Positions 24,694 through 50,155 of a stretch of DNA of 64,000 nucleotides are shown here, piece by piece (within the stretch, counting starts at the first letter, position 1; each line of letters begins with the position of its first letter). The notes under the pieces are model-generated. The model was given only the letters and a program-made list of their open reading frames with translations. It did not search any database and was not told the origin of the DNA. A program made the translations under genes and the position numbers. Source of the DNA: Lentisphaera araneosa HTCC2155 (lineage in GTDB: Bacteria > Verrucomicrobiota > Lentisphaeria > Lentisphaerales > Lentisphaeraceae); contig NZ_ABCK01000005.1 of assembly GCF_000170755.1 (NCBI RefSeq), positions 124,001-188,000 of the forward strand, in the 5' to 3' direction.

Positions 24694-24788
24694 CTAGTCA
24701 CTTGCCAATTGTACTTACCAAATTTTAATATAAAATGAGCTCAAGTTCTTATTGAAGGTTGAGAACACTAAGGGAGAATACTATAACT

Positions 24789-25958
24789 ATGGAATCGTAC
24801 AACTGTTATTCGTGTGGATTTAATAATCCTATTGCACACACTCACTGCGCAAAATGTAAAAAATCTGGTGCTGCGGCCGCTTTGACTTCTACTGGAACGG
24901 GCTCGTTTCCCGAAGGCTTTATTTGGCCTCTTTTTCCAAAAAACCTTAGCTTAGGCGCTGCACCTGCAGACGATGTATTGATTCCGACTAATAAAATCCA
25001 AGATCATCATTGTCGACTTGACTTTGTCAAAGGCCTTTTCTATTTGACTCTCCCGAAGACAGCTCCTCCTGCATTCATCGGTGGCCAACAAGTCCGCCCT
25101 AACATGAAGCAGGCTTTGAACGACGGGTCAAGTTTGAAAATTGGTGATGAAGAGCTCAAAATTACTTACTTTAATGGGCATGAAGGCTTTTCTGAAAAAG
25201 AAACTTTTGAACTAAAACAGCTCGCTGAAAAATCAGTTAATCCCACTGTCTCAAGACTACTTCATATCATCGCTTTCAAACGAGAAGTCATCAACCTCAC
25301 TTCTTCTGCTGACATTTTTTCTTTTGCTATTGACACTGTCCTTAGAATTACTGAACTCGATAGAGCTTACGCCTTTCAAGTCACCTCAGAAGATGATCAA
25401 TTAAAAGTAAAAGAAGTTATTGCCAAAAACTCTGACTTCACAATCATAGAAGAAGAAGATTTCAGCATTTCCCGATCGATAATGACTAAAGTCCTCGAAA
25501 ACCAAGGCTCTGTCTTTATTCAAGATGCAGACAAGGATGTCAATTCAACTGTCTCAATGGCGAATTTCAATATTAAAACCGTTATATGCCTACCCCTAAC
25601 AGTCAAAAATGAACAAGGTGAGCGCGAACTCATTGGCATTATCTATGCTGATAAGACTTTAAGTACCACCCCCCTCCCCTCAGGCATTAACTCTTCCCTG
25701 CAGTCCATGAGAAAAATCACCTCTCACCACCTCGTGCGCACTATGATGATCGATGACGCTCAATCAGATGTGGATGGTTTCAAAAGTTACTTTAGTAATC
25801 TTAATGGAGAGATTCAGAAAATTCGCGATTATTTAGCAGACACATCCAATCATATTGAAGCAGGCACTAGTTCCGATTCAAATGTATTTCAAGAACGCGT
25901 CTCTGAATGTAGCGAAGCCTTGAAAATGCTCTCTGAAAGCGTTAAACAAAACTTTTAA
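24789..25958 (+). CDS. Zinc-ribbon, FHA and GAF domain signalling protein
   Basis: I choose the ATG at 24789, preceded by AGGGAG, over a TTG at 24759. The 389-residue protein starts with a zinc ribbon (CYSCG and CAKC). A degenerate FHA domain, which binds phosphothreonine, covers residues ~35-125 (LSLGAAPADDVLI). A GAF domain covers ~165-320 (FSFAIDTVLRITELDRAYAF) and may sense a small ligand. It converges with the FHA/PEGA operon, overlapping its last gene by 4 bases. Partner kinases could be those at 31-32 kb or 15 kb. Confidence 0.82.
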   Translation: MESYNCYSCGFNNPIAHTHCAKCKKSGAAAALTSTGTGSFPEGFIWPLFPKNLSLGAAPADDVLIPTNKIQDHHCRLDFVKGLFYLTLPKTAPPAFIGGQQVRPNMKQALNDGSSLKIGDEELKITYFNGHEGFSEKETFELKQLAEKSVNPTVSRLLHIIAFKREVINLTSSADIFSFAIDTVLRITELDRAYAFQVTSEDDQLKVKEVIAKNSDFTIIEEEDFSISRSIMTKVLENQGSVFIQDADKDVNSTVSMANFNIKTVICLPLTVKNEQGERELIGIIYADKTLSTTPLPSGINSSLQSMRKITSHHLVRTMMIDDAQSDVDGFKSYFSNLNGEIQKIRDYLADTSNHIEAGTSSDSNVFQERVSECSEALKMLSESVKQNF

Positions 25959-26410
25959 TTTTTCCTAAAAACTAAATTTAGCTGCTTCTTCGGGGCCAAT
26001 AAATACTTTTCTTTGTACAGTTCTAAAAACTCGAGCTGCTGCTCTACACCCTTCAGTTCAAGTCTCGTTGTCATTATTAATTCACGTAGATTTGACTCAT
26101 TATCATTTCCCGTCATAGCCTCGGCATATATACGTCCTGCTTCAGACTCCACTTCCCCCATATATTTCAAGCGACTTTCCAGTGTCAGCTTCTTTAAATG
26201 ATAGAGTGAACGACACAAGTCATAATCAAACTGAAAGCTCTCTAAATATTTACTTTTGATTTGCGAAGGTGGCAAAAACTGAGTTTTGTCTAATTTATTT
26301 TTAAACTGAGCTATATAAAGCTTATTCTCCATAGATAGGAGCTTTTCGCTGTATTCGATTTCACCAAATAAAGGACTCATAAAAAAGAATATTAGTAAGG
26401 TCAACTTCAT
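25955..26410 (-). CDS. Small secreted protein, last gene of the kinase-FHA operon
   Basis: The 151-residue protein has a signal peptide (MKLTLLIFFFMSPLFGE) and a helical, charged mature part. Its start overlaps the stop of the upstream FHA/PEGA gene by 4 bases (ATGA), so the two are translationally coupled. No family is recognised. The neighbour has a periplasmic PEGA part, so an envelope partner role is possible. Confidence 0.7.
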   Translation of the reverse strand: MKLTLLIFFFMSPLFGEIEYSEKLLSMENKLYIAQFKNKLDKTQFLPPSQIKSKYLESFQFDYDLCRSLYHLKKLTLESRLKYMGEVESEAGRIYAEAMTGNDNESNLRELIMTTRLELKGVEQQLEFLELYKEKYLLAPKKQLNLVFRKN

Positions 26411-28173
26411 TCGACCAACTCACACTCTGTCAAAACCAACATATCTAAGCCCCTTATCCCTAAAGACCACGCCCGGACACTAAGGCGTTTACCATAATAA
26501 GAAAGGTCTTCATTTTGACCTTTAAAATAGCATTCTACTACATCATCCAAACGCAGTGTGTGCCAATTCTCATTTGAACTCAAAGCGGTAACCGTACCTT
26601 GAACTTCGAGATACTTATTTCCATATTTTTCGAAAAAACTTAATAAATCCATTTTACTTTTATCTTCTAATATCTCCTTTACAGCAAACTTCTCTATATT
26701 CTTTTCCCGTTCAGGTCCTCGATATTTTCTTGGCTCCCAAATATTCTCATTTAAAGGTAATATTTTTTTCTTTATCACTTCAATTCCCTTACTAATCCCC
26801 AAGCTCTCGGCTTTAGATGAAGCCTCCCAAGATAAAATATCTTTAAGGAGAATTCTTTTTTTCTCACCTTGTTCTAAGGCAAACACTAAGTCCCGATCAC
26901 CCTTTTCTTGTAGCATTCCATAAAACTCTTCGCCAGATTTTAATTTCACAAAATGACTTATTGTAAAAATTTGACTGCGAATGATTTTATCTTCTCCAGC
27001 TTTTATCCTTAGATCGAACTCTTCTTTTACTGTTTTACCTCTTGCCTGGATTGAAAGGAAATACTCCCCTGCATTCAATTTCTCGAGCTTTATAGGGTTT
27101 TCACTCGAGTCAAGTACTTTCCCATTGAGGTTCACTTCACAGTCAATGGCTGGCAAAGTAATTTCTAGTGAGCAATGATTGGGGTGTAATTCATAAAGCT
27201 TAATTAAATCATTTAAAACAACACTCACTGATGAGTATGAATCCAAGCTTATAGTCAAATTCTTTCCTTCTAACTTATCTTTTCTAATATAAGCTGGACT
27301 AAGAGCTAAATGCTCACCCTCATGAAGTAAATTCACGGAATTTGGTGTAGTTTGAAAGTCTAAGTACCTCTCATCCCTCTCTAAATCCACTACTACTTTT
27401 TGGTCAGATTGTAAATCCAACAAAAACTCCTTTTTATGATAGGCACGCTTAAAAACGGAAATGTAATGAAAGCCTTTCTCTAGGGATTTTAATTCAATCG
27501 GCAACTCCCCCTTATAATCTCCATTAACTTCTACGCTCACCGACTCAATTGGAGAACTTATGTTTAACACGCACTCAGGCTCTAATTCTTGATCTACAGC
27601 CCCATCCACATTTCCTGTTTCATTATCACTAAAACCCGCTTGCTCAAGCCGTATTTCATCACCCTGTTCAACGCTTAAATCAATTAAAACTGGCTCATTC
27701 AATTTTGGAGTGATTTTTCTTTGATCGACCTCATAAAACAAGTAGGCAAAAGCAACAAAAAATAAACCAAGTAACAAAGGCGTTTTATTAAAACTCAGCT
27801 CAGTTTGCTGTTCAGGTAGATCGGGATCACTTTCCGCAAGACCCGAATCCACAGTCGCAGTAGCTATATTATTAAGTTCTTTTCCACCTGTCTCAACTAA
27901 GGAAAAAACCTCTTCCCCAATTTTAAGTTGATCACCAACTTTCACCCGGCTAGCTTTTGCTATTTTTTGCCCGTTTATATAGACGCCATTATGGCTCTCT
28001 AAATCTTCCGACCACACTTCACCATCATGCTGAGTTAATTCGACGTGCTTCCCACTTAATTTGGGGTCATTAATCACAAGTGTGCATGAATGACTACGAC
28101 CAATGATAATTGAAGCTTCTTCAAAGCTCAATAATTTCCCTTTTAAGTTCCCCTCACTAAAGTAAAGTTTCAC
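26407..28173 (-). CDS. Membrane protein with cytoplasmic FHA domain and PEGA-like periplasmic domains
   Basis: This 588-residue protein has an N-terminal FHA domain (residues ~15-95: IIIGRSHSCTLVINDPKLSG, then ESHNGVYINGQKI) for binding phosphothreonine peptides. A single membrane span is near residue 135 (LLLGLFFVAFAYLFYEV). The periplasmic part has one or more PEGA-like units (VEVNGDYKGELPIELKSLEKG and CEVNLNGKVL). The start is GTG, immediately after the TAG of the preceding gene, so it is co-transcribed with DUF1549, DUF1501 and kinase genes. It could carry a phosphorylation signal from the kinase to the envelope. Confidence 0.82.
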   Translation of the reverse strand: MKLYFSEGNLKGKLLSFEEASIIIGRSHSCTLVINDPKLSGKHVELTQHDGEVWSEDLESHNGVYINGQKIAKASRVKVGDQLKIGEEVFSLVETGGKELNNIATATVDSGLAESDPDLPEQQTELSFNKTPLLLGLFFVAFAYLFYEVDQRKITPKLNEPVLIDLSVEQGDEIRLEQAGFSDNETGNVDGAVDQELEPECVLNISSPIESVSVEVNGDYKGELPIELKSLEKGFHYISVFKRAYHKKEFLLDLQSDQKVVVDLERDERYLDFQTTPNSVNLLHEGEHLALSPAYIRKDKLEGKNLTISLDSYSSVSVVLNDLIKLYELHPNHCSLEITLPAIDCEVNLNGKVLDSSENPIKLEKLNAGEYFLSIQARGKTVKEEFDLRIKAGEDKIIRSQIFTISHFVKLKSGEEFYGMLQEKGDRDLVFALEQGEKKRILLKDILSWEASSKAESLGISKGIEVIKKKILPLNENIWEPRKYRGPEREKNIEKFAVKEILEDKSKMDLLSFFEKYGNKYLEVQGTVTALSSNENWHTLRLDDVVECYFKGQNEDLSYYGKRLSVRAWSLGIRGLDMLVLTECELVE

Positions 28174-29844
28174 CTAATACACTCGGAATTCAGGTGAATT
28201 TATAATTGTCCAAGTCATTTCAAATACACCAGAGTTTACATAAGATGCGTCAAGATCTAATTTATTTTCAAAGAACAAGCGCTCGCGTTCATTCGGCAAC
28301 CTTGTGTAATAATGAACGAAAAACTCATTCAGAAATAGTTCAAAATCCTTTTTCTGAGATAAAGCATACCAAGCTTTGGCTTTGTTATCTATGAACTCTA
28401 AGGCGGCCTTGTTACTCGCTAAAAAAAGCGCCTGGGATAGACTTCCTCGATAAAAAGCCTCTGAATCCGACAAGGAACTGGGGAACATGTCATCAATATA
28501 TTTCTCTTTATCTTTTTCCAACTTGTAGAGTGACTGCCAACTTTCCTCTTTTTCAAAACTCTTCATGGCATCAGTCATGAGTACATTTAATATTTGCTCA
28601 CCATCTAAATGACGAATTTTTCTACTTTTAAAATAAATAAAACCCTCTTCGTCAGATTTTTCTGCGGAAGACATTCGATAAATATCAGACATCAACACTG
28701 TCTTTACTAAGGCATAAAGATCGAATCCATTATCCTCAAATATTTTAGCATAAGTATCCAAACGCTCACCATTATCATGATTGGCACCATAAACGTCATT
28801 AGCGGGCATAACTATCCCTCTTCCAATCAACCAGTGAGCTACCCAATTAGACGTAGACCTCGAAAAATACAAAGGCTTCTTATACGCCATCCAATCGGCT
28901 AAGTAATCTCTCGCACTTCTAGTTATATGAAGCGCTCGATCGGGCCCAAACAACAAGCGTGGACGAGCCGTGTGCTTCTTTTCCTCAACCACATACTCTA
29001 ATTTCAAATGAGTTAATCGTCGTTCTTTCTCAAAGATATAAAGCTGGGGTGCCAATAACGCTTTATCAGAACTCATTTCCCCCATATCAAATTTCATACT
29101 AAGATTTTGTCCACGACTCTCCTCATAAGAAATCTCGTCATAGATACTCTGCCCCTTTTCTTCCATTGCAATCCAATCTAAAACATCTTTAAGTTCTGCC
29201 CCCAAAGCTTCTTGGTTTCTATAACTTTTAGCGACCCTTTTTTTAAGTGCTTTAAGTTCTTTTTCTGTCTTCACATAACGCTTTTCCATGCCTTCGAAAA
29301 AAGTCGCCATCGACCAAAAGTTCTCATGCTTGAGCTCCGGGTAATATTTATGATCGTGACACTCTGAACACGCCAAAGTTATTCCCCAAACATTTTCCGT
29401 AAATCGACCTGCCATCATTTTGGAATCTTCTGCACCTGTGTAAAACAGCACCATTTTATTTCGAGCTGAAATACCATCGGCACTTAACATATCACGAATA
29501 AACTTGCGAAAATCGCCACCAACTTTGACGTATTCTTTTTTGACATGTTTCTCTAAGCCCCTATAAACTAAGGGGTGTTGATCTCTGTCTTGACGCTTAG
29601 GAGCGTAGTGATCAACTATTTTTGTAGCAAGATTACCCCGAAACTCTTCACTCTTCAATAAATCATTAACTAGTTTTTCATAACGACCAGTTTTTATCAA
29701 CTCCGTCCCCGAGTAGTATTCACTTACACTAGGTAAACGATTTTGAGTATCTAAATACAAACGCCTAAGTAAGCGATCAGCTTTTTCTTGAGAAGCAGAT
29801 AGCAAAAATGTACTTAAAAGGAGAAATGTAAAAAAAGTCTTCAT
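28174..29844 (-). CDS. DUF1549/DUF1553-like secreted protein
   Basis: The 556-residue protein has a signal peptide (MKTFFTFLLLSTFLLSAS), then LLRRLYLDTQNRLPS, the hallmark opening of DUF1549. A CSECHDHKYYPELKHENFW motif, containing CxxCH, lies near residue 160. The DUF1553-like part follows with WLIGRGIVMPANDVYG. It is shorter and more divergent than the 750-residue homologue at 33.6 kb. Its start overlaps the stop of the DUF1501 gene (ATGA). The biochemical role of the family is not established; the CxxCH may bind haem. Confidence 0.82.
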   Translation of the reverse strand: MKTFFTFLLLSTFLLSASQEKADRLLRRLYLDTQNRLPSVSEYYSGTELIKTGRYEKLVNDLLKSEEFRGNLATKIVDHYAPKRQDRDQHPLVYRGLEKHVKKEYVKVGGDFRKFIRDMLSADGISARNKMVLFYTGAEDSKMMAGRFTENVWGITLACSECHDHKYYPELKHENFWSMATFFEGMEKRYVKTEKELKALKKRVAKSYRNQEALGAELKDVLDWIAMEEKGQSIYDEISYEESRGQNLSMKFDMGEMSSDKALLAPQLYIFEKERRLTHLKLEYVVEEKKHTARPRLLFGPDRALHITRSARDYLADWMAYKKPLYFSRSTSNWVAHWLIGRGIVMPANDVYGANHDNGERLDTYAKIFEDNGFDLYALVKTVLMSDIYRMSSAEKSDEEGFIYFKSRKIRHLDGEQILNVLMTDAMKSFEKEESWQSLYKLEKDKEKYIDDMFPSSLSDSEAFYRGSLSQALFLASNKAALEFIDNKAKAWYALSQKKDFELFLNEFFVHYYTRLPNERERLFFENKLDLDASYVNSGVFEMTWTIINSPEFRVY

Positions 29845-31061
29845 GACATCAACTCATCAATCCCTGACTTTGATGGGCACAGATCCAAAGGACGACCACT
29901 TTTATGCATGTAGGGTTCATTGGGATTAAAGCCTAAATGACGATATAAAGAGTAGCTAAAGGCTCCCATCGTCACAGCATTTTCAAGACTTAAACCATCT
30001 TTTGAACTTTGACCTATATGCTGCCCAGAAAGGTTTCCTCCTATTAGGAGAATTGGGGTATTCATTGGGTAATGATCTCGACCTGCATTAGCATTAATCC
30101 GAGGCGTTCTCCCAAAATCTCCTGCAATCATGACCATTGTATTTTTTAACAAACCCATAACCTTTAATTCTTTTAACAATTGACATAAGCCCTTATTAAG
30201 AGGTTCTGATAAATTTCTACAGCGTTCCACATTATTTTGATGTGTATCCCACCCTCCATAGGGAATTTCTATCGAAGGGACTCCTGCTTGAATTAAACGT
30301 CTGGCTTGTAAAAAACTCTGTCCAATACCTTTGCCATAAGCTTCGATAGTTTGTGGGCTTTCACCACTCAACTCAAAGACTCGATTAGAGATACCTAAGC
30401 TCAACTGCGTCGCTTTGCGCCCATGGCGGAGCTCTTCTTTAATTTGATCTAAATGAGCATTAGCAGAATGTTTCATGTATTCGTCGCGCAAAGATTCCGA
30501 ACGGATGAGACGCGTACGCCAATCTTCGTCAACTTTTAATTTATTTTGCCCCGGCTTCATACTATAGGGACTGAATTCATTCCCAAGGAAACCCGCAGAT
30601 AATGAACCACCTAAAGAAACGACTTTAGGTAAATCTGACTCTTTTTCTTCAGCTAAAGCCCAGCCCGCAATCGAACATAAACCTGGCTGTACCTGAGCTG
30701 GATTAGGTAAAAAACCTCCCGTTCCGACATAATACCTTCCCAGTTCATGGGCTCCTATTCGCGAACTCGTATGAACTAACGCCATGTGCTCTGAAAAACC
30801 TGCTAAACCTTCATAAGACTCGGCAAAATAGACATTTTTCATTGCCGTCTTTATACCTTTGATCCCACCTCCGTTGCTATGATCTGGCTTGGCGTCAAAA
30901 GTATCCATTTGCGAGGGTCCACCACGCAAATTGACGTATATAAAGTGTCTGATTTTTTCTTTTCTCTTGGGCTTAGCATTCGCGGAATTCGCAAATAACA
31001 TGCTCGACAAGGCGACACTACTACCACTTAAAAATGTTCTTCTATCTAAACTCACAGACAT
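29841..31061 (-). CDS. DUF1501 protein with twin-arginine-like signal
   Basis: The 406-residue protein begins with a twin-arginine-type signal (LDRRTFLSGSSVALSSMLFA). The mature part has the DUF1501 hallmarks: YVNLRGGPSQMDTFDAKPDH, the central YGGWDTHQNN and the C-terminal DFGRTPRINANAGRDHYP. The fold is related to sulfatases and alkaline phosphatases. DUF1501 is normally encoded beside DUF1549/DUF1553, as here. The kinase gene lies 69 bases upstream on the same strand. Confidence 0.9.
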   Translation of the reverse strand: MSVSLDRRTFLSGSSVALSSMLFANSANAKPKRKEKIRHFIYVNLRGGPSQMDTFDAKPDHSNGGGIKGIKTAMKNVYFAESYEGLAGFSEHMALVHTSSRIGAHELGRYYVGTGGFLPNPAQVQPGLCSIAGWALAEEKESDLPKVVSLGGSLSAGFLGNEFSPYSMKPGQNKLKVDEDWRTRLIRSESLRDEYMKHSANAHLDQIKEELRHGRKATQLSLGISNRVFELSGESPQTIEAYGKGIGQSFLQARRLIQAGVPSIEIPYGGWDTHQNNVERCRNLSEPLNKGLCQLLKELKVMGLLKNTMVMIAGDFGRTPRINANAGRDHYPMNTPILLIGGNLSGQHIGQSSKDGLSLENAVTMGAFSYSLYRHLGFNPNEPYMHKSGRPLDLCPSKSGIDELMS

Positions 31062-31130
31062 TAAATTCCTTAATTATTATCTATAATAATTAACGACATC
31101 AATAAAGTTTTTATTGTGTGAATAAAAAGA

Positions 31131-32123
31131 TTAAGCTTCTACTTCTACTTCTTCTTGCTCAGCTTCGACTGCTGAATCATACAAAAAGCATATATCATTA
31201 TAAAGCTCATCATAAGTCTGATAGCGATCTTCCATTTCATGGGCGATGAGATTATCTATCAAAATACAGAGACCTTCCGGAAGATAGTCATTAAGCTCCT
31301 GAATCGGGTAACGATAGGGGTGCATGTGACCTTCTACGATTTCCTCATTAGGTCCATCAAAATAATTCTGTCCGTTGACAACATAATAAAAGACCATACC
31401 CAAGGCGTACATATCAGACCTTTCATCTTCAACTATGCCTTTGATTCGCTCTGGTGGGATATAGGATGGTGAACCAATTAAATTGTCATCATCTATCTCC
31501 TGCTCATCCTTGTGGATCGCGAGACCAAAATCAACCAAAGTCAGCTTCTCACCTCTTACAATCACATTTTGAGGTTTCAAATCGCGGTAGATAAAGCCAG
31601 TAGTCGCCATGTAACGCAAGGCGTCAACTAATTGTTTCATCCAGGAATACAACTCAACTTCGGAAAACTCAAAACCCTTAGCTATCTGCTCCAAGGTGTA
31701 GCCCGGTACATAATCCATTAATAAGAAGGCCTTACCACTCTTATAGCCAAAGCGATAAGCTGTTGCAATATGAGGATGTTCAAAACTCATCACTACGTCA
31801 CCTTCATAAAGCAAACTTTGGAAACGGAAGTCACATTCATCAGTATAATCTGAAAGTTTAATCGCATACAGTTTGGGGTCATCATACTTCTGAGCCATAT
31901 ATACACGCCCCATACCACCTTCACCTGTAACATCGTACAGCCAAAACTCAGTGATTCTCATGGGCATAAAAACATTTTCGCCACAACTTTGACACTCATA
32001 TTCTCTTAATGGTTCATAACCTTCCATATCACACCACTCATGGCATGTCATGCATTTAGCTAGGCCATCTTCAAAGCGTTTAAGCTCATCCTCTGTCAGA
32101 GCAGTAGTTCTGTAACCTTCCAT
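31131..32123 (-). CDS. Ser/Thr protein kinase with N-terminal zinc ribbon
   Basis: The 330-residue protein starts with a zinc-ribbon-like segment (CMTCHEWC then CQSCGENVF). A complete kinase domain covers residues ~60-315: GEGGMGRVYMA glycine loop, AIKLSD catalytic Lys, YRDLKPQN catalytic loop, VDFGLA, and SPSYIPPERIKG. No membrane span is visible, so it is cytoplasmic. It heads a probable five-gene operon (DUF1501, DUF1549-like, FHA/PEGA, small secreted protein), which supplies a phosphate-accepting FHA partner. Confidence 0.88.
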   Translation of the reverse strand: MEGYRTTALTEDELKRFEDGLAKCMTCHEWCDMEGYEPLREYECQSCGENVFMPMRITEFWLYDVTGEGGMGRVYMAQKYDDPKLYAIKLSDYTDECDFRFQSLLYEGDVVMSFEHPHIATAYRFGYKSGKAFLLMDYVPGYTLEQIAKGFEFSEVELYSWMKQLVDALRYMATTGFIYRDLKPQNVIVRGEKLTLVDFGLAIHKDEQEIDDDNLIGSPSYIPPERIKGIVEDERSDMYALGMVFYYVVNGQNYFDGPNEEIVEGHMHPYRYPIQELNDYLPEGLCILIDNLIAHEMEDRYQTYDELYNDICFLYDSAVEAEQEEVEVEA

Positions 32124-32457
32124 AAAAAATCTTCATATATAGTTATTGTAATCTAAGGCCTTTAATCTAAATCCATATCCCCATATTTCTAGACTCAGAA
32201 CTTTAAAGCCCTTGGTCTAATCTGCTAAATAAGTCTAATTTTAACAAAAAACGATACTTAACTAAACTTTTACACACAAATAAGCTTCCATAAATTAAGA
32301 CCTAAGAGATATAGTACAGGAAAGTATATAAAACTTCTGTGACTTTTAACCAATTTTTCAAAGACTTTACCCCTTCACAGCACTTACTTTTATTGTGATT
32401 TCATTTTTAACAGTCTAAATTGAGCTATAATTAAACAAGAAACTTTAGGTACTCAAA
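32124..32457. other. Intergenic region between divergent kinase and lipoprotein genes
   Basis: These 334 AT-rich bases must carry promoters for both flanking genes. A TATAAT at 32426-32431 is a candidate -10 for the lipoprotein gene, but no good -35 lies at the right distance. I see no RNA gene or coding frame. Confidence 0.4.
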
Positions 32458-33495
32458 GTGAAATTCCATCTCCCCTTAACTGCATGTCTTCTTTTCTCCC
32501 TTATTAGCTGTGACTCAGAACAAGTTCAAAAAATCAAAGATAAAGTCAAACAAAGCACTGAATCAAGCGCCGACGCTAAAGGCGAAGAGACTCCTGAGGT
32601 CGTTCTTTTCGATAAAGAAGGCGCCATTCAATATATCAATTCACAACTTCCAAAAGTTGTGCTCCCTGGTGAATATGAGTTCACAGCAGAAAAAGCCAAC
32701 AACGAAAAATTCGGTGATTATGTAAAAATCCAATACCTAAATGAACTGAGCTATAAAGAAGACTATTATAATGTAGATAAATCCGTATCTTTCATGAAAG
32801 TTTTACAGGATAAAGGATGGACTAACGAATTTGCCCAACTGAAAAAAGCTCCCTATACCTTTTATTCTAAAGTAGCCGTAAAGGGTGATAAGACGGCTAT
32901 TCAAGGTTCACTAATCTATAGAAAAAGTGGTGAGAAAATGGTTTTCAAAGATCACAAATTGGAACGTGGTCACATTGTTGAAGGTTTCCCTCAAGCAAAG
33001 TTTGGAAAGTCATACCTTCTCGTAGGATCTATGGAAGCCGATACAGCAATTGACGGTTTCATGCAGGATTATGCTGTAGCTAAAAGACACAATGACAACG
33101 TCCTTAACACGGTGACTCCAGAAAAAGTGTATAAAGGAAGTTTAAAAATCACTCCGGAACTTAAGAAAGACGTTACTTGGACAATGGGTAAACAACACAA
33201 GTTACTCAAAACGACTGAAGCTCTTATCACCTTCGATGAAAACCCTGAACTTAAAATCATCTTAAAAGGAACGTACTTAACAGAAATTCGTCCTAGTAAT
33301 AGAAGCAACCTTAACTACAAGGTAGAATCCGTCACAGTCTACGACTCACCTAGGGATCCATTTTTCCAAAAGATCCATCCTTATATTAAATCGGAATACT
33401 TCACTTTATTCCTCTCACCTAGTGGCAACTTATCTGGCATGTCAAAAAACTTAAAAATTGATCTCACTCCATATGATGGGAAAGTAAAAGAATAA
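32458..33495 (+). CDS. Lipoprotein of unknown function
   Basis: The 345-residue protein starts at GTG and has a lipoprotein signal (LPLTACLLFSLISC), with the lipid-carrying Cys at residue ~19. The mature protein is Lys/Glu-rich and contains regular beta-rich stretches (VAVKGDKTAIQGSLIYRK). No family is recognised. It is followed by a strong terminator, so it is probably monocistronic. Confidence 0.78.
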   Translation: MKFHLPLTACLLFSLISCDSEQVQKIKDKVKQSTESSADAKGEETPEVVLFDKEGAIQYINSQLPKVVLPGEYEFTAEKANNEKFGDYVKIQYLNELSYKEDYYNVDKSVSFMKVLQDKGWTNEFAQLKKAPYTFYSKVAVKGDKTAIQGSLIYRKSGEKMVFKDHKLERGHIVEGFPQAKFGKSYLLVGSMEADTAIDGFMQDYAVAKRHNDNVLNTVTPEKVYKGSLKITPELKKDVTWTMGKQHKLLKTTEALITFDENPELKIILKGTYLTEIRPSNRSNLNYKVESVTVYDSPRDPFFQKIHPYIKSEYFTLFLSPSGNLSGMSKNLKIDLTPYDGKVKE

Positions 33496-33639: not shown

Positions 33640-35892
33640 ATGAAACTTTACTTAATTTTACTTTTCCTCTTACCTTCATTAATTTTTTCAGCCACTCACC
33701 CAAATGATGCGATTGCAAAAATTAATAGCTTGGTAAACTCAAAGCTCGAGGGGAACCTAAATAAAAAATCTGATGACTCAACATTTGTTCGTAGAATTTA
33801 TCTAGATATCATCGGGCGTATTCCTTCTATTGAGGAAAGCTCTTCATTCATCTCCAATAAAAACTCCAACAAACGACAAGAACTGATTAAAAACCTTATC
33901 ATGTCGGAGGCTTATGTTTCCAATAACTTTAATTACTGGGCAGATATCCTTCGCATCACTAATGATGGTGGCAATAATATCCGTGTGATGACCGCTGCAT
34001 ATAGTCAATGGTTAAAAAAATCCCTCCGCGACAACAAACGCTACGATGACATGGTCTTTGAACTATTGTCGAGTGAAGGTTCTGTATGGGATAACCCCGC
34101 AGCCTCATACTACTTGCGTGATAATGGCATGCCTTTAGATAATACCGCTAATACAATACGTGTTTTCCTTGGAACTCGACTCGAATGTGCTCAATGTCAC
34201 GATCACCCTTTCGACGATTGGACACAAATGGAGTTTTACCAAGCAGCTGCTTTTACCTATGGATATAAAGGAGGAACTTTCCCAAGTGATAAAAACTCTA
34301 ACTTATCAGGTTTAAAAAAGCACATTGGTGCTCTCAATAGAGAAAAGTTTGCGCAAGCCGCAGGCAGTAAAAAAGTCCGTGTCGTTTTTAATGAAAAACA
34401 ACTCCAAGACCTTCTCAAAAACAAAAACTTCCAAAAATATTTGAAGAAATCAAATATGAGCCAAGAAGAATATGTACGACGCGCACGAAAAGGCATGCAA
34501 GCCACTACAGATATGAAACTCATTCAATATTCAACTAAGGAAACGATTGAATCTCTCTTCGGAAAAATGCGTTCTACCACACTCGACACCAAAGAAAAAG
34601 ACCTCAAACTTCCTCATGATTATCAATATGATGACGCCAAGCCCGAATCTCTTGTAAAACCCGCCACCATGTTTGGGGATAAATTCACCATGAGAGAAGG
34701 CGAAAGTCGCCGTGAAGCTTTTGCTCGTTGGTTAACTTCTACCGATAACCCTACTTTCACCCGAGTCATTGCTAACCGCATGTGGAAAAAAGCTTTTGGC
34801 GTAGCGGTCTTCTCTCCTGTTGATGAAATAAATGATTTCACCAATGTTCGTAACGAAGAACTCATGAATTACTTAGAGCAACTCATGAAAGACCTCGATT
34901 ACAACCTAAAAGCTTTTCAATACATCATCTTCAACACCGATGCTTATCAAGCTAAGGTCAGCGCTACTCAAATTGGCACCAAAGAAGCTTATGACTTCCG
35001 TGGCCCTGTACTGCGCCGCATGAGTGCTGAACAACTCTGGGACTCACTCATAACTTTGAGTATTGAAAATCCAGATATCTACCTCAGCAGCTCAAAAAGT
35101 GATGAGGCCCTTGTAAGTAGTATTCGTGCTAAATACCAAGCCATAGAAAACATGGATACCAATGAATTTGTTGATAAAATCATGAACATTGCCGAATACA
35201 CGGCTTCTCGAGATAAAGAAATTAAAGACCTACGCCTCAAAACGCTTGAAGCAAGAAAAGAAAAAGATTTTCAGAATATCAAAAAACACCAACAAGCCAC
35301 AAAAAAGATTTATAAAAGCATTGAAGAGAAAACAAAAAATACCTTAGCCATGAGCACTTCAGGCTCAATGGATATGCAAATGATGGATAGCATGAACTAC
35401 AAAGCCAAAGGTAACAAAAATAAGTTTCAGCTCATTAAACAAGAGCCCAGTGCCAACTTATCAAAGAACCAATTAAAGGTAAGAAACTCCCAATTTAAGC
35501 AATTCGAAAAAATGCTCACTCATTTCTACCGTGCCTCTGAGCTCTCTTCCCCTTCCCCTCGAGGTCATTTCCTCCGCGACTTTGGCCAATCAGATCGCTT
35601 AAGTATTCAAAATGCCAATAAATCACCTACGATTACCCAAGCATTGAACCTCATGAATGGTCATGTATACCGTGTCCTCAATAATCCTCATTCCTTACTT
35701 GGTCGCAAACTACATGCAAGTAAAAGTACTCCAGAGAGTTTCGAACTGCTCTACCAAGCTTTCTTCAGTCGCAAGCCCACAACTCGTGAATGGGAGATCC
35801 TCGGCAAAGAGACAAAAATCAGCAAAAGCGAAGCGACCAAAAATGTCCTTTGGGCTTTACTCAACTCAAAACAATTCACTTTTATTCAGTAG
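33640..35892 (+). CDS. DUF1549/DUF1553 secreted protein
   Basis: This 750-residue protein has a signal peptide (MKLYLILLFLLPSLIFSA) and the DUF1549 opening (FVRRIYLDIIGRIPSIEE). The CAQCHDHPFDDWTQMEFY motif, with its CxxCH, is near residue 185. DUF1553 follows, with RREAFARWLTSTDNPTFTR and NRMWKKAFGVAVFSP. A Met/Lys/Gln-rich insertion lies at residues ~530-610. It is paired with the DUF1501 gene 9 bases downstream, the normal arrangement in Planctomycetota and Lentisphaerota. Function is unknown. Confidence 0.92.
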   Translation: MKLYLILLFLLPSLIFSATHPNDAIAKINSLVNSKLEGNLNKKSDDSTFVRRIYLDIIGRIPSIEESSSFISNKNSNKRQELIKNLIMSEAYVSNNFNYWADILRITNDGGNNIRVMTAAYSQWLKKSLRDNKRYDDMVFELLSSEGSVWDNPAASYYLRDNGMPLDNTANTIRVFLGTRLECAQCHDHPFDDWTQMEFYQAAAFTYGYKGGTFPSDKNSNLSGLKKHIGALNREKFAQAAGSKKVRVVFNEKQLQDLLKNKNFQKYLKKSNMSQEEYVRRARKGMQATTDMKLIQYSTKETIESLFGKMRSTTLDTKEKDLKLPHDYQYDDAKPESLVKPATMFGDKFTMREGESRREAFARWLTSTDNPTFTRVIANRMWKKAFGVAVFSPVDEINDFTNVRNEELMNYLEQLMKDLDYNLKAFQYIIFNTDAYQAKVSATQIGTKEAYDFRGPVLRRMSAEQLWDSLITLSIENPDIYLSSSKSDEALVSSIRAKYQAIENMDTNEFVDKIMNIAEYTASRDKEIKDLRLKTLEARKEKDFQNIKKHQQATKKIYKSIEEKTKNTLAMSTSGSMDMQMMDSMNYKAKGNKNKFQLIKQEPSANLSKNQLKVRNSQFKQFEKMLTHFYRASELSSPSPRGHFLRDFGQSDRLSIQNANKSPTITQALNLMNGHVYRVLNNPHSLLGRKLHASKSTPESFELLYQAFFSRKPTTREWEILGKETKISKSEATKNVLWALLNSKQFTFIQ

Positions 35893-35901
35893 GAGCTTAT
35901 T

Positions 35902-37155
35902 ATGGACCGTCGACAATTCATCAAAACTGCCGGAGCTAGTGCACTAAGCTTCAACCTTCCTTTCAACGCCATGGCGTCTTCTCTAGACTTTAAACAAACA
36001 CCTGGATCTGCCAAAAACCTCATCTACCTTTACATGGGTGGTGGCATGTCACACATGGATACATTTGACCACAAAGGTAGCCATAAGAATCAAGGCCCCG
36101 TTAAAGCGATCAAAACTCGAGCGCAAGAAGTCGAGATCTCTGAATTCCTTCCTTTGACAGCTGAGCACACAGATAAAATGGCTATTGTCAACTCAATGAC
36201 TTCTACGGCTGGTGCCCATGCTCAGGGTAATTACTTCATGCATACCAGTTATGAGATGCGCTCCACTATTCAACACCCAGGAATCGGTGCTTGGTTTCAA
36301 AAATTCCACGGCAAACTTAACAAAACTTTGCCCGGCTCAGTTTTCGTCGGTGGCAATAGCCGCACCTTTGGTAATCGCGGTTTCTTTGAACCAGAATACG
36401 CTCCCCTTTCTATCAGCAGCCCCGAAGCTGGCTTAAAAAATGCAAAAAACCCCTATTTCGAAGATAAAGAATTTCATCGCCTCACTTCTTTGACTAATGA
36501 ACTCGACGAAAAATTCATGAAAGATTTTGAACTCGATAGTACTCAGTCGGCAGTTTCAACTTACCGTGAAGCTATGGACCTCATGTCGAGCCCTGACCTC
36601 GCAGCTTTTAAACTTGATAATGTCACTGAAAAAGACAAAACGATGTATGGCGATAATAATTTTGGCATGGGTTGCCTCCTTGCTAAACGACTCGTTCAAA
36701 AGGGTATCCGTACAGTCGAGGTTTCTCTCGGAGGCTGGGATACTCACAGTAATAATTTTGATCGCGTTTCACTCAATACAAACACTCTCGACAAAGCCTA
36801 CAGTGCTTTATTAAGCGATCTCGAAGAAAGTGGCATGCTTAAAGACACCCTTGTTGTACTCGCAACTGAATTTGGTCGAACTCCAAAAATCAATGTTAAT
36901 GACGGCCGTGACCACTACCCTAAAGCCTTCTCTTGTGTTTTAGCAGGTGGTCCAGTGCGCGGCGGCCAGAAATATGGTATGACCAGTGAAGATGGCACTA
37001 CTGCTGTTAAAGATGCAGTTAAAATTCCAGATTTTAATGCGACCATCGCAAAAGCTCTAGGGATGCCTTGGCAACAACAGCTCTTCAGCCCCTCTAAACG
37101 CCCTTTCAAAGTGGCCCACAGAGGCAAACCAGTCGATGCCCTCTTAACAATTTAA
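35902..37155 (+). CDS. DUF1501 protein with twin-arginine-like signal
   Basis: The 417-residue protein begins MDRRQFIKTAGASALS, a twin-arginine signal. It shows YMGGGMSHMDTFDHKGSH, SLGGWDTHSNNFDRVS and EFGRTPKINVNDGRDHYP, the three standard DUF1501 blocks. It is probably exported to the periplasm as a partner of the DUF1549/DUF1553 protein encoded just upstream. It is paralogous to the gene at 29.8-31.1 kb. Confidence 0.92.
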   Translation: MDRRQFIKTAGASALSFNLPFNAMASSLDFKQTPGSAKNLIYLYMGGGMSHMDTFDHKGSHKNQGPVKAIKTRAQEVEISEFLPLTAEHTDKMAIVNSMTSTAGAHAQGNYFMHTSYEMRSTIQHPGIGAWFQKFHGKLNKTLPGSVFVGGNSRTFGNRGFFEPEYAPLSISSPEAGLKNAKNPYFEDKEFHRLTSLTNELDEKFMKDFELDSTQSAVSTYREAMDLMSSPDLAAFKLDNVTEKDKTMYGDNNFGMGCLLAKRLVQKGIRTVEVSLGGWDTHSNNFDRVSLNTNTLDKAYSALLSDLEESGMLKDTLVVLATEFGRTPKINVNDGRDHYPKAFSCVLAGGPVRGGQKYGMTSEDGTTAVKDAVKIPDFNATIAKALGMPWQQQLFSPSKRPFKVAHRGKPVDALLTI

Positions 37156-42665: not shown

Positions 42666-44322
42666 GACTGTGTGAAAAAGATTTGCCTTTGTATCAAACT
42701 AAAATAATTAGCGAGTTTACCTGATTCTTTTGTCTGATGAGCATTTTTATTGCCTTTGTGTTGATGTAAGAGCTCATTAATAGGTGGTTTTGAACATGTT
42801 TTTGCCAAAAGCTCTTCCTACCTTTGAGAAATGACATGATCTCAGAGAAATTCACAATATTAAGAACCCTATTCAAATTATAAGTGAGTTGTGCCAAGAA
42901 AGTTTCTGCCTGTGCCGACTCTATTCCAATCATATTGTATCCACCAGTAAGAATGTGTCTTTTAATCGTTCCAAAAGGATGTTCTACAATGGCAGACCTT
43001 CGCTTCATGATATTTGGTTTGGCTTTCATTCTTTCCCGAACATTCTCCAAAACGTGTTCGTGTTCCCAGCGTTGAATACTTCTGCTTTTAGAGTTTGTGC
43101 ATTTGTCTTTCCGAGAGCAATTTACACAAGCTTCTGGACTTTTATATATCCAATAAGTTTTACAATCTTTTTTCTTGTTTTGATATTTTTGGAGGATTTG
43201 TCCCGCAGGACATGTGTAGGTGTTATTATATTCGTTGTAAATAAACTCAGGTTTCCCATAGAAACCTTTACCTTCCATGGGACATCCTTTTTCAGGTATA
43301 TAGCTTTGGTAACCATCATCTTCACAAGCTTTTATATCTTCATTACTAAAATAACCTTTATCTGCGAGAAGATTGGCACCTTTTACTTCCTTAATAACAT
43401 CAGCGAGCCTAGATCGCAAGATTCTGATGTAACTTCAGCTGCAATAATCAAATAATTTTTATCATCTACTGCGTGTTGAACATTATAGCCTACCGTACTT
43501 TTTCTCCCTTTTTTAAGAGGGCGGCTTTCTGGATCGTTGTAACAAATACTGTTTTTATCAGTAGTGTCCAACTTTTGTTTTAGTTTCTTTAATTCTTGTG
43601 ATTTTTCTTGATTTTTCACTAGTGAGCTTTTTAGCTTGTTTTGTTTTTCTTCTCTATTTGGAGAAGGAGCTTCATCTAGTTCCTCTAATTGTCCTAGGTA
43701 CTTTTCTACCTCTTTTTCATACTTCTTAAGTGCTGAGTTTAATTTATTTTTAGTCCAGCTTTTACTAATATTGTTAACGGCTTTAATACTCGTGCCATCA
43801 ACAGCTATAAAATCCCCCGAAATCAACTTAAGCTTGTTACACAACAGGGTGAATTGAGCGCTAGCCTTTTTAAACGCATTGCGGTTTATTCTCCTAAAGT
43901 CACAGATAGTTTTAAAATCTGGTTTTAATTTACCCATGAGCCAAATCACTTCGAGATTCACTTTACAAGCTCTTTCTAGTTTGCGGCCACTACGAATTCC
44001 ATAAGAATAACCATAGATGAACAACTTCAATAAATCGGCCGGATCATAAGCAGGTCGACCCCGCCCATCTAACCTTTCTTTGGGGTAAGTAAAACCGCAT
44101 TCGCTCAAGTCTAAACCATTAACAAATTCATCTATAAAGCGCACTTTATTATTTTCATCGACATAATCATCAAGACAATCTGGCAGTAATAAAACCTGAT
44201 CACGTGATACTCTTTTTATAAAGCTCATAAACTTCCCACATGAATTATCAACAATATCTTATATACTATAATATATAAGCTTATTTAAATATGTATATTT
44301 GGATATTGTTTTTCACACAGCC
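42666..44322 (-). mobile_element. IS1182-like insertion sequence inserted in a hairpin
   Basis: The element is 1,657 bp, with terminal inverted repeats GACTGTGTGAAAAA and GGCTGTGTGAAAAA (13 of 14 match). It is flanked by an 8-bp target duplication TCGTCAGA at 42658-42665 and 44323-44330. Without the element, the host DNA reads CTAGTTCGTCAGAACTAG, a perfect stem-loop whose central 8 bases were duplicated. The single transposase gene is frameshifted, so it may be unable to move on its own. Confidence 0.92.
42694..44228 (-). pseudogene. Frameshifted IS1182-family transposase
   Basis: Two frames meet at about 43383-43419. The N-terminal frame (43383-44228) ends EVTSESCDLGSLMLLRK. The C-terminal frame continues as LADVIKEVKGANLLADKGYF. 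A one-base change would give a normal IS1182 transposase: DDE domain with SGDFIAVDGTSIKAV, the LLADKGYFS block, and the IVEHPFGTIKRHI end. I see no classic slippery heptamer at the junction, so an inactivating mutation is more likely than programmed frameshifting. Confidence 0.85.
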
Positions 44323-44585: not shown

Positions 44586-44877
44586 CTAAACAGTTTTAGT
44601 TAAATATGCTCATAGGTTCCAAAACCTTAAATCAAGCGCCTCAGATTAGCTTGTATTAACTTATTAATTTGGCTGACTTCTTTTTCATCAATTTGATATT
44701 CTTTGGCAAGTACCTTGAATTGGTTAACCGCCTAAACAGTTTTAGTTAAATATGCTCATAGGTTCCAAAACCTTAAATCAAGCGCCTCAGATTAGCTTGT
44801 ATTAACTTATTAATTTGGCTGACTTCTTTTTCATCAATTTGATATTCTTTGGCAAGTACCTTGAATTGGTTAACCGC
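44586..44877 (-). repeat. 146-bp perfect tandem duplication at the hipA 3' end
   Basis: Bases 44586-44731 and 44732-44877 are identical. The right-hand copy holds the last ~35 codons of hipA and its stop; the left-hand copy is therefore an untranslated echo of the gene's 3' end. The length is not a multiple of three, but this does not harm the gene because the extra copy lies after the stop. Perfect identity suggests a recent event. Confidence 0.95.
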
Positions 44878-45999
44878 TTCAGCGACTTCTTCTATTATTG
44901 TCTTTGCTTTGCCCAATTTTATTCCAGATATCTTGGCTAAATCTAGAAGCTGTTCTTTGCTAGGGTTTTTACCTTCTCCGCAAAAACTCATACTATGTTC
45001 AGCTCCGGGGCCCCTATTAAAGGTTAAATCATATGCTGGTGTTGCTGACCAGTCCTGATTTGTATAAATAAATGAAAAGTTTTTCACGTGATCATCACGA
45101 TTATTACTGCACAAATTAAAGACTGCTTGTCGAAAAAGCTGTTCTACATCATTTTGCTTTTTTGTCAAGATTCGCGTCAGCTTTAATAGATCTAGATAAT
45201 CATTCGATGGAATGCGAAAATTTGAATGAATTAGGTTACCAAATGTATGAATGTGAAAGCGTTCACCTGCTTCTCTATCAAAACGTTTGATGCCAAAATA
45301 ATAGTGATTATCCTCACTCTGAAAAAGTCTTGTTTTAGGCATTATCAAACCAGCTTGTTGCGCCATAGTAGAGTAAACATACTCTATTTTTCCTGAGTCA
45401 AGATGCTCATTTGGCGCCACAAACTTAAGTATCCATGCTTGAAAGTCTGATGGTAGAGTGTCCGCCGTAATGATTTCATCCTTTTTTATTCCGGCCAAAA
45501 CCTTTGGTCGAGCTCCCCCTGGACTACCTCCGTAATGTAATAACTGAGGTAAAACTTCATGAATTGATCCCTGCCAAACTTTTTCCACTTCACTTGCCAT
45601 GGATTTTAAACTGAGGCTTTCTTGCAAAAACTGCTCTTGATTAGTACAAGGCTCATAAGTTAATGCGCCCATACTTCGTGAACCCAAATAAGCCAAACGA
45701 TCGAGCACGGAAAGCTTATGTGGATCTAGCCCTTGCTTACGGAAAAAGCGATCCATTAATAGCAAGCCCCAACCATCGGGTAATGAATCATCAAAAAGAC
45801 CAAAAACAGTAGAAAATTCATGATCTTTAAATTCGTGTAAGCCCGGCTTCGGTGCTAATTTAAATGGTGAAAGCCAAAGGGGGTCCAGGAGAAAGTCACT
45901 ATCATATTCAAAGTAAATTTTTCTATTGTTCTCTGCCAAAATACCCACGAGTCGCTTATTGCTTAAACTGCTTTGATAATACACCTTAAGCTTTTTCAT
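44773..45999 (-). CDS. hipA: HipA-like toxin kinase
   Basis: The 408-residue protein is a Ser/Thr kinase toxin of the HipA family, which in E. coli phosphorylates glutamyl-tRNA synthetase. It shows the N-terminal domain (LFDDSLPDGWGLLLMDRFFR), the glycine-rich ATP loop GGSPGGARPKVLA, the catalytic loop NNRDDHVKNFSF and the metal-binding AYDLTFN. All key sites look intact. It overlaps the antitoxin gene by 4 bases (ATGA) and is in the same orientation. Confidence 0.92.
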   Translation of the reverse strand: MKKLKVYYQSSLSNKRLVGILAENNRKIYFEYDSDFLLDPLWLSPFKLAPKPGLHEFKDHEFSTVFGLFDDSLPDGWGLLLMDRFFRKQGLDPHKLSVLDRLAYLGSRSMGALTYEPCTNQEQFLQESLSLKSMASEVEKVWQGSIHEVLPQLLHYGGSPGGARPKVLAGIKKDEIITADTLPSDFQAWILKFVAPNEHLDSGKIEYVYSTMAQQAGLIMPKTRLFQSEDNHYYFGIKRFDREAGERFHIHTFGNLIHSNFRIPSNDYLDLLKLTRILTKKQNDVEQLFRQAVFNLCSNNRDDHVKNFSFIYTNQDWSATPAYDLTFNRGPGAEHSMSFCGEGKNPSKEQLLDLAKISGIKLGKAKTIIEEVAEAVNQFKVLAKEYQIDEKEVSQINKLIQANLRRLI

Positions 46000-46289
46000 A
46001 AACGCCCTCGTTTTGCTGTCGACTCACGAACTTCCAAATCCTTTAAACTACTCGCTATTGGGGCTTGAAATAGCTGTTCAAAATCTTCTAAATGATCTAA
46101 TGCAAAAGCAAGCTTGAGTAAAGATTGTAGTGAAATGAGTCCGGTTTTTTCAAAACGGCGTAAAGAAGCTAGGCTTACCCCGGAACGATCGGATAAGGTT
46201 TGTTGCTTCCAGCCTAAAGCCAAGCGCTTCTCACGTAGCCTTTCTGCCAAGAGGATGGAAATCTCTTCTGGAGTATTTAAATAATACAT
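45996..46289 (-). CDS. hipB: HipB-like antitoxin/repressor
   Basis: The 97-residue protein carries an XRE-type helix-turn-helix (GWKQQTLSDRSGVSLASLRR). In the family it binds HipA and represses the operon. The gene comes first and overlaps hipA by 4 bases. Its start lies inside one arm of a 13-bp perfect inverted repeat. Confidence 0.9.
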   Translation of the reverse strand: MYYLNTPEEISILLAERLREKRLALGWKQQTLSDRSGVSLASLRRFEKTGLISLQSLLKLAFALDHLEDFEQLFQAPIASSLKDLEVRESTAKRGRL

Positions 46290-46376: not shown

Positions 46377-48221
46377 CTATTTCACTCGCATCCAGTCAAT
46401 TTCAATTTTTGTCCCCGCGGGAGCTTTAAACTCAAGTTTGAGATCTTTAATCGTACCTGCCCAATTTGCGCCCAGGGCAAAATTTAAATCGTTAAATTCA
46501 TCCGTCCCTGAGACTTTACTTGAGGCGATATTTTCACCATTTGCTGAAAACTGAATTTCTGCTGGTGTATTGGAGCGTATTCTCAAGACTAAATCACCTT
46601 GATTGCGACTTGAATCAAGTTTGAGGCCACTGCGCTTGAGTGAAGCTTTTTCCGCGATTAAGTCAAAGTTTAAAAAACCCTGTCGACCAGAAATATTTGT
46701 GGTTTTACCATCTGATATCCAGCCCTCATTTTGCCAGCCTCCACAGTCGAATTCAAACATTAATTGCCCATCTTTGGGGTCGCGATTATTATACTGCTCC
46801 CAGAGGTCAGAGAGACCATCGCCATCTGAGTCCGTACGCACGCGTTCGTATTCAGCATTGACGCCCTTGAAGCGGCCATTGCCGTTAATCTCTAGTTCAA
46901 TATCGGGTTCTTGACCTGCACCTAAATCGCCTTTAGCTACCCATGAATTTAGAATCTGACGATGCTCTTTGAGAACTGCTTGGTACTTCGGAAGTTTTGC
47001 TAGGTTATTAACTTGGGCTGGATCTAAAGTGATATCATAGAGTTCTTCTGCAGGACGTTCCCCAAAATAGATTTCTGCTAACTTGGGGTCTAGTGTTCCC
47101 TTGGCGTATTCACTGCGCATAAATTTGAGATAATCTTTATTGTCGCGGTACTGAGGCTGTAAGAAAACTCGATCCAATTTGTAGTTGCGCGTGTAACGGT
47201 ATTTGTCTGTACGAATAGTTCTCACTCGATCAATAGTATGATCACAGCGGTCGCGACCTGAGCCAACATAACTTCGAGCCTTAAAATCATCCGCAAAAAG
47301 ATTTTGTCCCTCAATCCACTCGGGGTAATCAATCCCCGCCCAAGTTAAGCTTGTGGCCGAAACGTCGAGGATTGTTACCAAATCATTGCGTACTGCCTGC
47401 TTGGGAACCCATTTTTCTGGTCCAATGATAACGAGTGGTACGTGAAGTCCTGCCTCAGTAGGCATCTGCTTGTGACGAATGAGGTTATTGGCTCCATGAT
47501 CGGAAAAGTACACCACAATCGTTTTTCCCATGAGTCCATCTTTTTTGAGTTCATCGAGAATACGGCCAATGCGATCATCATCTGAACGAATCGTATCGCA
47601 GTGCTGAGCTACGATCTCGCGATACATTTGATTCTGGGGATAATCGGCAGGAACAGTCACTGCTCCGGGATTTGTTTTGCGTTCCCTAGGAAATTTACCG
47701 GTGTTAGTTTTGCCACCTTTGAGCTGAATTTGACCAAAAAAAGGTTTTCCTTTTGGCATTTCTCTCCAGGACATTGAAGTCTGTTTACCATTTACTTTTA
47801 TATATGTACTCGGAGGATAAGTGAAGTTATAATCATCTTTACCCTGATTAAAAGTGGCGTAACCCGCCTCCTTAAAAAGCTGAGGTAGAGTTTTCATTCC
47901 TTGAGGAAGAGGTAAAGCCCCCTTCCCTCGACGGGAACGATGTTCATGAGCACCAAAGCGAAATTGATTAGCTCCGACAATCACAGCTGATCGACAAGCA
48001 GAACAAACGGGCGCAGGCACATAAGCTCGCTTAAAGATCACTCCTTCACTCGCCATTTTATCTATGACTGGAGTTTCCCCTTTTTGTACTTCATAATCGT
48101 AAGCCCCCATCCATGGCGAAGTATCTTCTTGAAACAACCACAGAATATTGGGTTTATCCTCTGCAAAGGCATTTTGATTTAGGAACAAAGTAAAGAGTAA
48201 AGTCAATAAAAGTTTATTCAT
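46377..48221 (-). CDS. Secreted sulfatase with C-terminal calcium-binding-like and beta-sandwich region
   Basis: This 614-residue protein has a signal peptide (MNKLLLTLLFTLFLNQNAFA). The sulfatase domain opens KPNILWLFQED, and the activation motif CSACR near residue 73 supplies the Cys that is turned into formylglycine. After residue ~490 comes DSDGDGLSDLWEQ, a thrombospondin-type-3-like calcium site, then a ~100-residue beta-rich domain that may bind glycans. The usual motif has Pro at its third position, so Ala here is a known variant. The modifying enzyme is not in the window. Confidence 0.9.
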   Translation of the reverse strand: MNKLLLTLLFTLFLNQNAFAEDKPNILWLFQEDTSPWMGAYDYEVQKGETPVIDKMASEGVIFKRAYVPAPVCSACRSAVIVGANQFRFGAHEHRSRRGKGALPLPQGMKTLPQLFKEAGYATFNQGKDDYNFTYPPSTYIKVNGKQTSMSWREMPKGKPFFGQIQLKGGKTNTGKFPRERKTNPGAVTVPADYPQNQMYREIVAQHCDTIRSDDDRIGRILDELKKDGLMGKTIVVYFSDHGANNLIRHKQMPTEAGLHVPLVIIGPEKWVPKQAVRNDLVTILDVSATSLTWAGIDYPEWIEGQNLFADDFKARSYVGSGRDRCDHTIDRVRTIRTDKYRYTRNYKLDRVFLQPQYRDNKDYLKFMRSEYAKGTLDPKLAEIYFGERPAEELYDITLDPAQVNNLAKLPKYQAVLKEHRQILNSWVAKGDLGAGQEPDIELEINGNGRFKGVNAEYERVRTDSDGDGLSDLWEQYNNRDPKDGQLMFEFDCGGWQNEGWISDGKTTNISGRQGFLNFDLIAEKASLKRSGLKLDSSRNQGDLVLRIRSNTPAEIQFSANGENIASSKVSGTDEFNDLNFALGANWAGTIKDLKLEFKAPAGTKIEIDWMRVK

Positions 48222-50126: not shown

Positions 50127-50155
50127 ATTTTCTATATCAAAAAATTAGGCCTCCA

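Follow-up and report, generated by a model that had tools for sequence, protein, structure and literature searches.

The exported DUF1501 and DUF1549 proteins are very abundant in PVC bacteria, with dozens of DUF1549 proteins per genome in Planctomycetota, and their function is not known (see also PMC5615132 and PMC4452313). In Lentisphaera araneosa HTCC2155, whose genome carries at least 25 DUF1501 genes, one such pair lies in a tight block with the genes of a serine/threonine kinase, a membrane FHA protein and a small exported protein. This raises the question of what connects the pair to the membrane protein, and whether phosphorylation in the cytoplasm controls it, as was suggested in a preliminary description of the locus. 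The window considered here is the whole stretch of DNA that was analysed, 64,000 nucleotides in length. ORF calling places the block at 25955-32123 of the window, as five open reading frames of the minus strand. The block and its immediate surroundings comprise the following features:

32458..33495, plus strand: putative lipoprotein, divergent neighbour without family assignment (345 aa)
32124..32457, no strand: intergenic region between the kinase gene and the divergent lipoprotein gene, candidate promoter region of the operon (334 bases)
31131..32123, minus strand: Ser/Thr protein kinase (330 aa; ORF and Pfam Pkinase, 9.9e-40)
31062..31130, minus strand: gap between the kinase and DUF1501 genes (69 bases)
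29841..31061, minus strand: DUF1501 protein (406 aa; PF07394, 9.4e-58)
28174..29844, minus strand: short DUF1549/DUF1553 (PSCyt2/PSD1) protein (556 aa; PF07583, 5.9e-16; PF07587, 4.8e-15)
26407..28173, minus strand: membrane FHA-PEGA protein (588 aa; FHA, 2.9e-16; PEGA, 9.3e-7)
25955..26410, minus strand: small exported protein (151 aa; signal peptide by inspection; without Pfam match)
24759..25958, plus strand: zinc-ribbon/FHA/GAF protein, convergent neighbour outside the transcript (399 aa)

The successive spacings from the kinase gene to the small protein gene are 69, -4, 0 and -4 bases, and the ORF calls thus bear out the layout given in the preliminary description. Its label of a DUF1549-like protein was right for DUF1549 and had missed the DUF1553 domain on the same protein. 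The FHA-PEGA gene has a GTG start, and the junction with the DUF1549 gene reads TAG|GTG. The convergent zinc-ribbon/FHA/GAF gene overlaps the last gene of the operon by 4 bases. Alignment of the 32124-32457 intergenic region across three species of the genus reveals conserved blocks. Consensus promoter sites are no commoner than in shuffled sequences (16 found, 22 expected).

Further features lie elsewhere in the window. Three sulfatase-like genes and other genes of exported enzymes, recognised by inspection, occur near the operon at 46377-54903. A HipA-like protein and a 97-aa helix-turn-helix-like partner, encoded with a 4-base overlap on the minus strand at 44773-46289, look like a complete HipBA toxin-antitoxin pair. 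One transposase is split over two overlapping frames, a DUF772 part and a DDE part (42694-44228, minus strand), and another transposase gene is apparently incomplete (48673-49515, plus strand).

The conservation of the block within the genus can be followed in the window genome and in the two other sequenced species, G001 and G002. The five genes have identical order and strand in both, so the arrangement is not unique to this genome, the outcome that the preliminary description had named as a possible objection. The proposed survey of other lineages gave a mixed answer, since beyond G001 and G002 the five-gene order was found in none of the other Lentisphaeria families or the sampled Planctomycetota. 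When the gene starts in G001 and G002 are adjusted to conserved N-termini, the three species are alike in the 4-base DUF1501/DUF1549 overlap, the 0-base DUF1549/FHA junction and the 4-base overlap of the FHA and small-protein genes. The kinase-DUF1501 gap measures 69 bases in G002 and 249 in G001, with scant sequence conservation. Identity to the window proteins is 90-94% for the kinase, 75-85% for the DUF1501 protein, 75-76% for the DUF1549 protein, 48-57% for the FHA-PEGA protein and 34-38% for the small protein (38% in G002 and 34% in G001, where the counterpart is at the matching position). The genes flanking the operon likewise keep their order, and both the FHA/GAF gene and the divergent lipoprotein gene are conserved beside it in all three species. 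Because of these conserved flanks, gene order within the genus is weak evidence for a functional unit.

Stronger evidence comes from other genera of the family. In G004 and G005, which represent a second genus, the order is DUF1501, short DUF1549, FHA/PEGA and a 216-aa exported protein, without the kinase and with unrelated flanks. The next gene in both encodes a protein with an STN-like region (4e-6 in G005, just below the cut-off). Profile comparison of the small protein with the 216-aa protein aligned a plausible 34-column stretch at a probability of 3.9%. In G003, a third genus, a DUF1549 gene is followed by that of a PEGA protein, and the contig breaks off without reaching a DUF1501 gene. 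This PEGA protein lacks the FHA domain and begins with a cysteine-rich, zinc-ribbon-like stretch; the 40 bases between the two genes leave no space for an FHA domain. The gene that follows it in G003 (locus L057, 4669-5637, minus strand) encodes an exported FGE-sulfatase-type protein (8e-34), unlike the small proteins of the other genera. The further short DUF1549 genes of G003, G004 and G005 have no PEGA neighbour, and those of G004 and G005 precede DUF1501, which is the ordinary order.

The trees agree with inheritance of the module as a unit. The FHA-linked DUF1501 proteins form one clade (support 99/99), and in the DUF1549 tree the FHA linkage needs two changes, which we interpret as a single gain and a loss in G003. 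The case is therefore strong for the central genes of the operon, since the three species share the overlaps and a second genus, whose flanks differ, has the same DUF1501-DUF1549-FHA/PEGA order. Within Lentisphaeraceae, the DUF1501, short DUF1549/1553 and FHA/PEGA genes with a small exported gene are inherited together, their ends mostly overlapping or abutting; the kinase gene ahead of them is confined to the window's genus. The suggested coupling of the exported pair to a membrane FHA protein is accordingly a property conserved in the family, with one origin in the DUF1501 tree.

The short DUF1549 subfamily is found only in Lentisphaeraceae among the searched genomes and the best 80 loci listed. 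A search of 388 genomes from the phylum with its profile (A1) found members in 5, all of them Lentisphaeraceae and all at or below 1e-221, and nothing falls between this value and the 1e-40 threshold. A scan of genome contigs, from which records of the window's own genome are possibly absent, yielded one strong locus (G004) among the best 80 listed, the next reaching 3e-17. The best match in another set of six genomes, five from Planctomycetota, reached 5e-28 and is partial; these five genomes and the contig scan with its best 80 loci make up the Planctomycetota sample. An FHA or FHA-PEGA relative was seen near other DUF1549 genes at 0 of 79 loci (of the best 80 listed, flanks up to 8 kb). The search at these control loci used phmmer with the window's own protein as query, and with such a single-protein query distant FHA genes may have escaped. 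A kinase relative was present at 6 of the 79. At one of these six, on a Planctomycetota contig (L131, 14366-17619), a second DUF1501 gene is followed after 102 bases by the start of a kinase gene in the same orientation. Neighbouring kinase and DUF1501 genes thus also occur outside the family, by chance or otherwise, possibly as an independent link.

The DUF1501 protein matches PF07394 over profile positions 2-389 of 390 (196.7 bits, cut-off 27). Its start, DRRTFLSG, is of the twin-arginine type, with R7-R8 invariant in alignment A5, and TatC is present in 6 of 6 family genomes. The same alignment contains an invariant set of Asp and His residues (D56, H105, D272, H274, D329, H330). We take the protein to be of the alkaline-phosphatase-superfamily type and this set to have a metal role; comparison with the PDB gave no convincing relative. 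The DUF1549 and DUF1553 domains score 59.5 and 56.1 bits, the PSD1 match covering profile positions 2-121 of 244. By inspection, the DUF1549 protein has a Sec-type signal peptide. Its motif C159-x-x-C162-H163-D164-H165 is invariant in alignments A1 and A7, distant relatives included, and cytochrome c assembly genes are present. AlphaFold predicts a largely helical fold (pLDDT 75.8, pTM 0.77), which has no match in the PDB below E 4; a weak resemblance to phycobilisome linker polypeptides (sequence E 0.0035, fold E 4.4) is not relied upon. For neither protein does a PDB relative point to a reaction. Export of the pair to the periplasm by the predicted Tat and Sec routes is supported by these signals. 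The surface location assumed earlier finds no such support, as neither a lipobox, nor a sorting domain, nor an outer-membrane feature was seen in either protein.

A second, ordinary DUF1549/DUF1553-DUF1501 pair in the usual order lies 1.5 kb from the operon (33640-37155, plus strand); it is adjacent in G001 and not in G002. Its DUF1549 protein (33640-35892) has 750 aa, compared with 556 aa in the short form. A third exported pair of PVC type, at 57113-60890 on the minus strand, consists of a DUF1552 protein whose gene overlaps that of a PSCyt1/PSCyt3/PSD2-5 protein.

The FHA-PEGA protein consists of an FHA domain (7-94; 60.1 bits, cut-off 20.7), one transmembrane segment near 128-146, a PEGA domain (203-264) and a further beta region. 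Its C-terminal part contains tentative SH3-like (near 405-455) and OB-like (near 521-588) segments, the latter giving a tRNA_anti-like match of 0.017 in two members. FHA domains bind phosphothreonine, and the residues responsible for this (G25-R26, S40, H43, N62) are kept in 5 of 5 FHA-bearing members (alignment A2). Identity in the FHA domain is 68% and 60%, against 6-25% in the poorly conserved linker and stalk; the periplasmic part is also well conserved. The structure model, built from a two-row alignment, is of low confidence (pLDDT 44.8), too low for a fold search. Many genomes of the phylum contain matches to the profile of the periplasmic part (A8), nearly all of those listed covering PEGA repeats only; one match, in G007, spans nearly the whole model. 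The proteins of G007 and G039, which belong to other Lentisphaeria, also have an FHA domain and are encoded beside a PHP-type gene (by inspection), not beside DUF1501. The FHA-PEGA protein family is therefore not dedicated to the DUF1501/DUF1549 pair; it seems to be older in the class and was apparently joined to the pair in Lentisphaeraceae. In G007 (locus L175, 7679-11360), the FHA-PEGA gene adjoins the PHP-type gene and is divergent from that of a trypsin/PDZ (HtrA-like) protease. Our literature search found no description that combines the terms "PEGA domain" and "FHA domain".

The kinase (Pkinase match of 137 bits) is a soluble protein without a transmembrane segment, with a zinc-ribbon-like CxxC...CxxC at its N-terminus and intact catalytic motifs (the lysine in YAIK, YRD and DFG). 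Its activation loop, AIHKDEQEIDDDNLIGSPSYIPPE, has no threonine, and the loops of all four kinases compared (three species and a G005 relative) contain serine and no threonine. Since FHA domains normally need phosphothreonine, these loops lack the usual docking site. A TT motif at the N-terminus (T6, T7), which to us recalls the TT motif of GarA and OdhI, is kept in the genus and missing from the G005 relative; the genus kinases are at least 90% identical, so this conservation carries little weight by itself. The nearest kinase outside the genus is that G005 protein (322 aa, 55%), which is encoded outside the operon, next to a gene that looks VWA-like by inspection. In the 86% complete genome of G004, no kinase relative at the 55% level was found. 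With about 100 kinase matches and at least 25 DUF1501 genes in the window genome, about 0.6 kinase-DUF1501 neighbours are expected by chance (assuming about 5,000 genes), and for this reason the adjacency is not strong evidence. The kinase as a core partner throughout the family was considered and rejected, as its place beside the operon is peculiar to the window's genus; the preliminary description had counted it as a core part, which the G005 relative elsewhere and the 249-base gap in G001 also speak against. The kinase is the least firmly linked part, and its role as the source of phosphorylation is the least secure step of any mechanism that includes it.

The reading that we prefer, quite possible if somewhat short of probable, is a PEGA protein that anchors an exported metalloenzyme and its CxxCH partner at the inner membrane, with the FHA domain as an exchangeable cytoplasmic phosphothreonine input and the adjacent kinase as the likely source of the signal in the genus of the window. 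Exported folded via Tat, the DUF1501 protein would act as a metal-dependent hydrolase from the alkaline phosphatase/sulfatase superfamily. Its DUF1549/1553 partner would be alpha-helical and leave via Sec, and its CxxCH site may bind haem c or a metal. The PEGA protein, anchored in the inner membrane, may hold or position the pair by its periplasmic beta domains, perhaps together with the small protein; gene order is the ground on which we infer that the DUF1501 and DUF1549 proteins bind it. The cytoplasmic FHA domain would bind a phosphothreonine protein and so tie the complex to a cytoplasmic signal. That this input is exchangeable is suggested by the G003 relative, which has a zinc ribbon in its place. 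In the genus of the window, the adjacent kinase would be the likely source of the signal. Its target would be a separate protein or the TT motif at its own N-terminus, not the activation loop, which has no threonine. Anchoring is the most likely function of the PEGA adaptor. Control of the pair by phosphorylation is plausible, and no more is claimed because the kinase gene is the less firmly linked addition; as an essential control, it is weakened by the FHA-free G003 protein and by the activation loop.

A simpler arrangement would keep the anchor and drop the phosphorylation: a constitutive PEGA scaffold in the inner membrane, an FHA domain serving generic oligomerisation or docking, and a kinase that is a chance neighbour with other targets. 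The zinc ribbon in G003, the unlinked kinase of G005 with none at that level in G004, the likelihood of one DUF1501 neighbour among some 100 kinases and the threonine-free loop all fit it. Nevertheless, we hold it to be possible but doubtful, since the phosphothreonine pocket is kept in all five FHA members in a domain far better conserved than its linker, 2 of the 11 FHA matches of the genome (the FHA-PEGA protein and the zinc-ribbon/FHA/GAF neighbour) lie within 3 kb in the operon block, and the kinase is adjacent in all three species of the genus. At the other extreme, the kinase, the FHA-PEGA transmembrane adaptor and the exported metalloenzyme with its CxxCH partner would form a single inside-to-outside phosphorylation switch, which we consider unlikely. 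If true, such a switch would provide a regulatory and physical handle on very abundant PVC proteins without known function.

The signal could also run inward, with the PEGA/OB domains and the DUF1501/DUF1549 pair detecting a substrate or the redox state of the periplasm and reporting through the FHA domain to cytoplasmic partners such as the kinase and the FHA-GAF protein. A protein that crosses the membrane once, with FHA in the cytoplasm and beta domains in the periplasm, would suit such sensing, as would the convergent FHA-GAF gene conserved beside the operon in the genus. This gene is, however, not beside the operon in the second genus, and no feature indicates the direction of the signal, which makes inward sensing improbable. 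Least probable is that the genes stand together because local gene order changes slowly. The flanking genes do keep their order within the genus, but the maintained stop/start overlaps and the recurrence of DUF1501-DUF1549-FHA/PEGA amid other flanking genes in a second genus, and in one clade, stand against it; as an explanation of the core, it is largely refuted by the second genus. The lineage also gives practical access: with the pair genetically tied to a single membrane adaptor, it provides a bait for pull-downs, and the zinc-ribbon variant of G003 and the kinase-free operons of G004 and G005 are natural comparisons that could separate anchor from control.

Several known systems share parts of this arrangement. 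PknB-type kinases have the FHA substrates GarA, OdhI and FhaB, and there, too, kinase and FHA protein are encoded together. The best partial NCBIfam matches of the operon proteins are PknB for the kinase and FhaB for the FHA domain (78 bits), both below the family cut-offs. In contrast to PknB, the operon kinase lacks PASTA domains, a transmembrane segment and an activation-loop threonine, and it falls short of the PASTA-type profile NF033483 (144.9 against 450 bits). YscD/PrgH of type III secretion and GltG of gliding share with the FHA-PEGA protein a cytoplasmic FHA domain, one transmembrane segment and repeated periplasmic domains. The Yop-YscD_cpl profile matches it above the cut-off (1e-14), and the GltG match is weak and far below. 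The FHA-PEGA protein differs from these in its PEGA and OB-like periplasmic part, and its operon carries no secretion or gliding genes; type III secretion genes are absent from the operon and the scanned neighbours, and the YscD match is to the cytoplasmic-domain profile only. Closer in build are the G007 and G039 proteins, with FHA followed by PEGA repeats and, in G007, a match that also covers the C-terminal region, and they differ in their PHP-type gene neighbour.

Among systems that contain DUF1501, the DUF1501-DUF1800 pairs, some of which adjoin bacterial chitin synthase genes (PMC5122149), share a Tat-type DUF1501 protein and a partner without known function. The partner belongs to another family, and no FHA, PEGA or kinase gene is listed in that work. 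PMC4452313 and PMC4960237 cite Kamneva et al. (2012) for a module of DUF1501 genes in PVC bacteria, and PSCyt2 genes are reported to adjoin a family of genes without known function (PMC5615132). The PVC pairs of DUF1501 with DUF1549/DUF1553 resemble the operon in both protein families, in adjacency and in export. The operon departs from them in its short DUF1549 subfamily, in the reversed order with DUF1501 first and in the FHA/PEGA gene directly downstream, and the module is thus a lineage-specific variant of the known DUF1501/DUF1549 kind.
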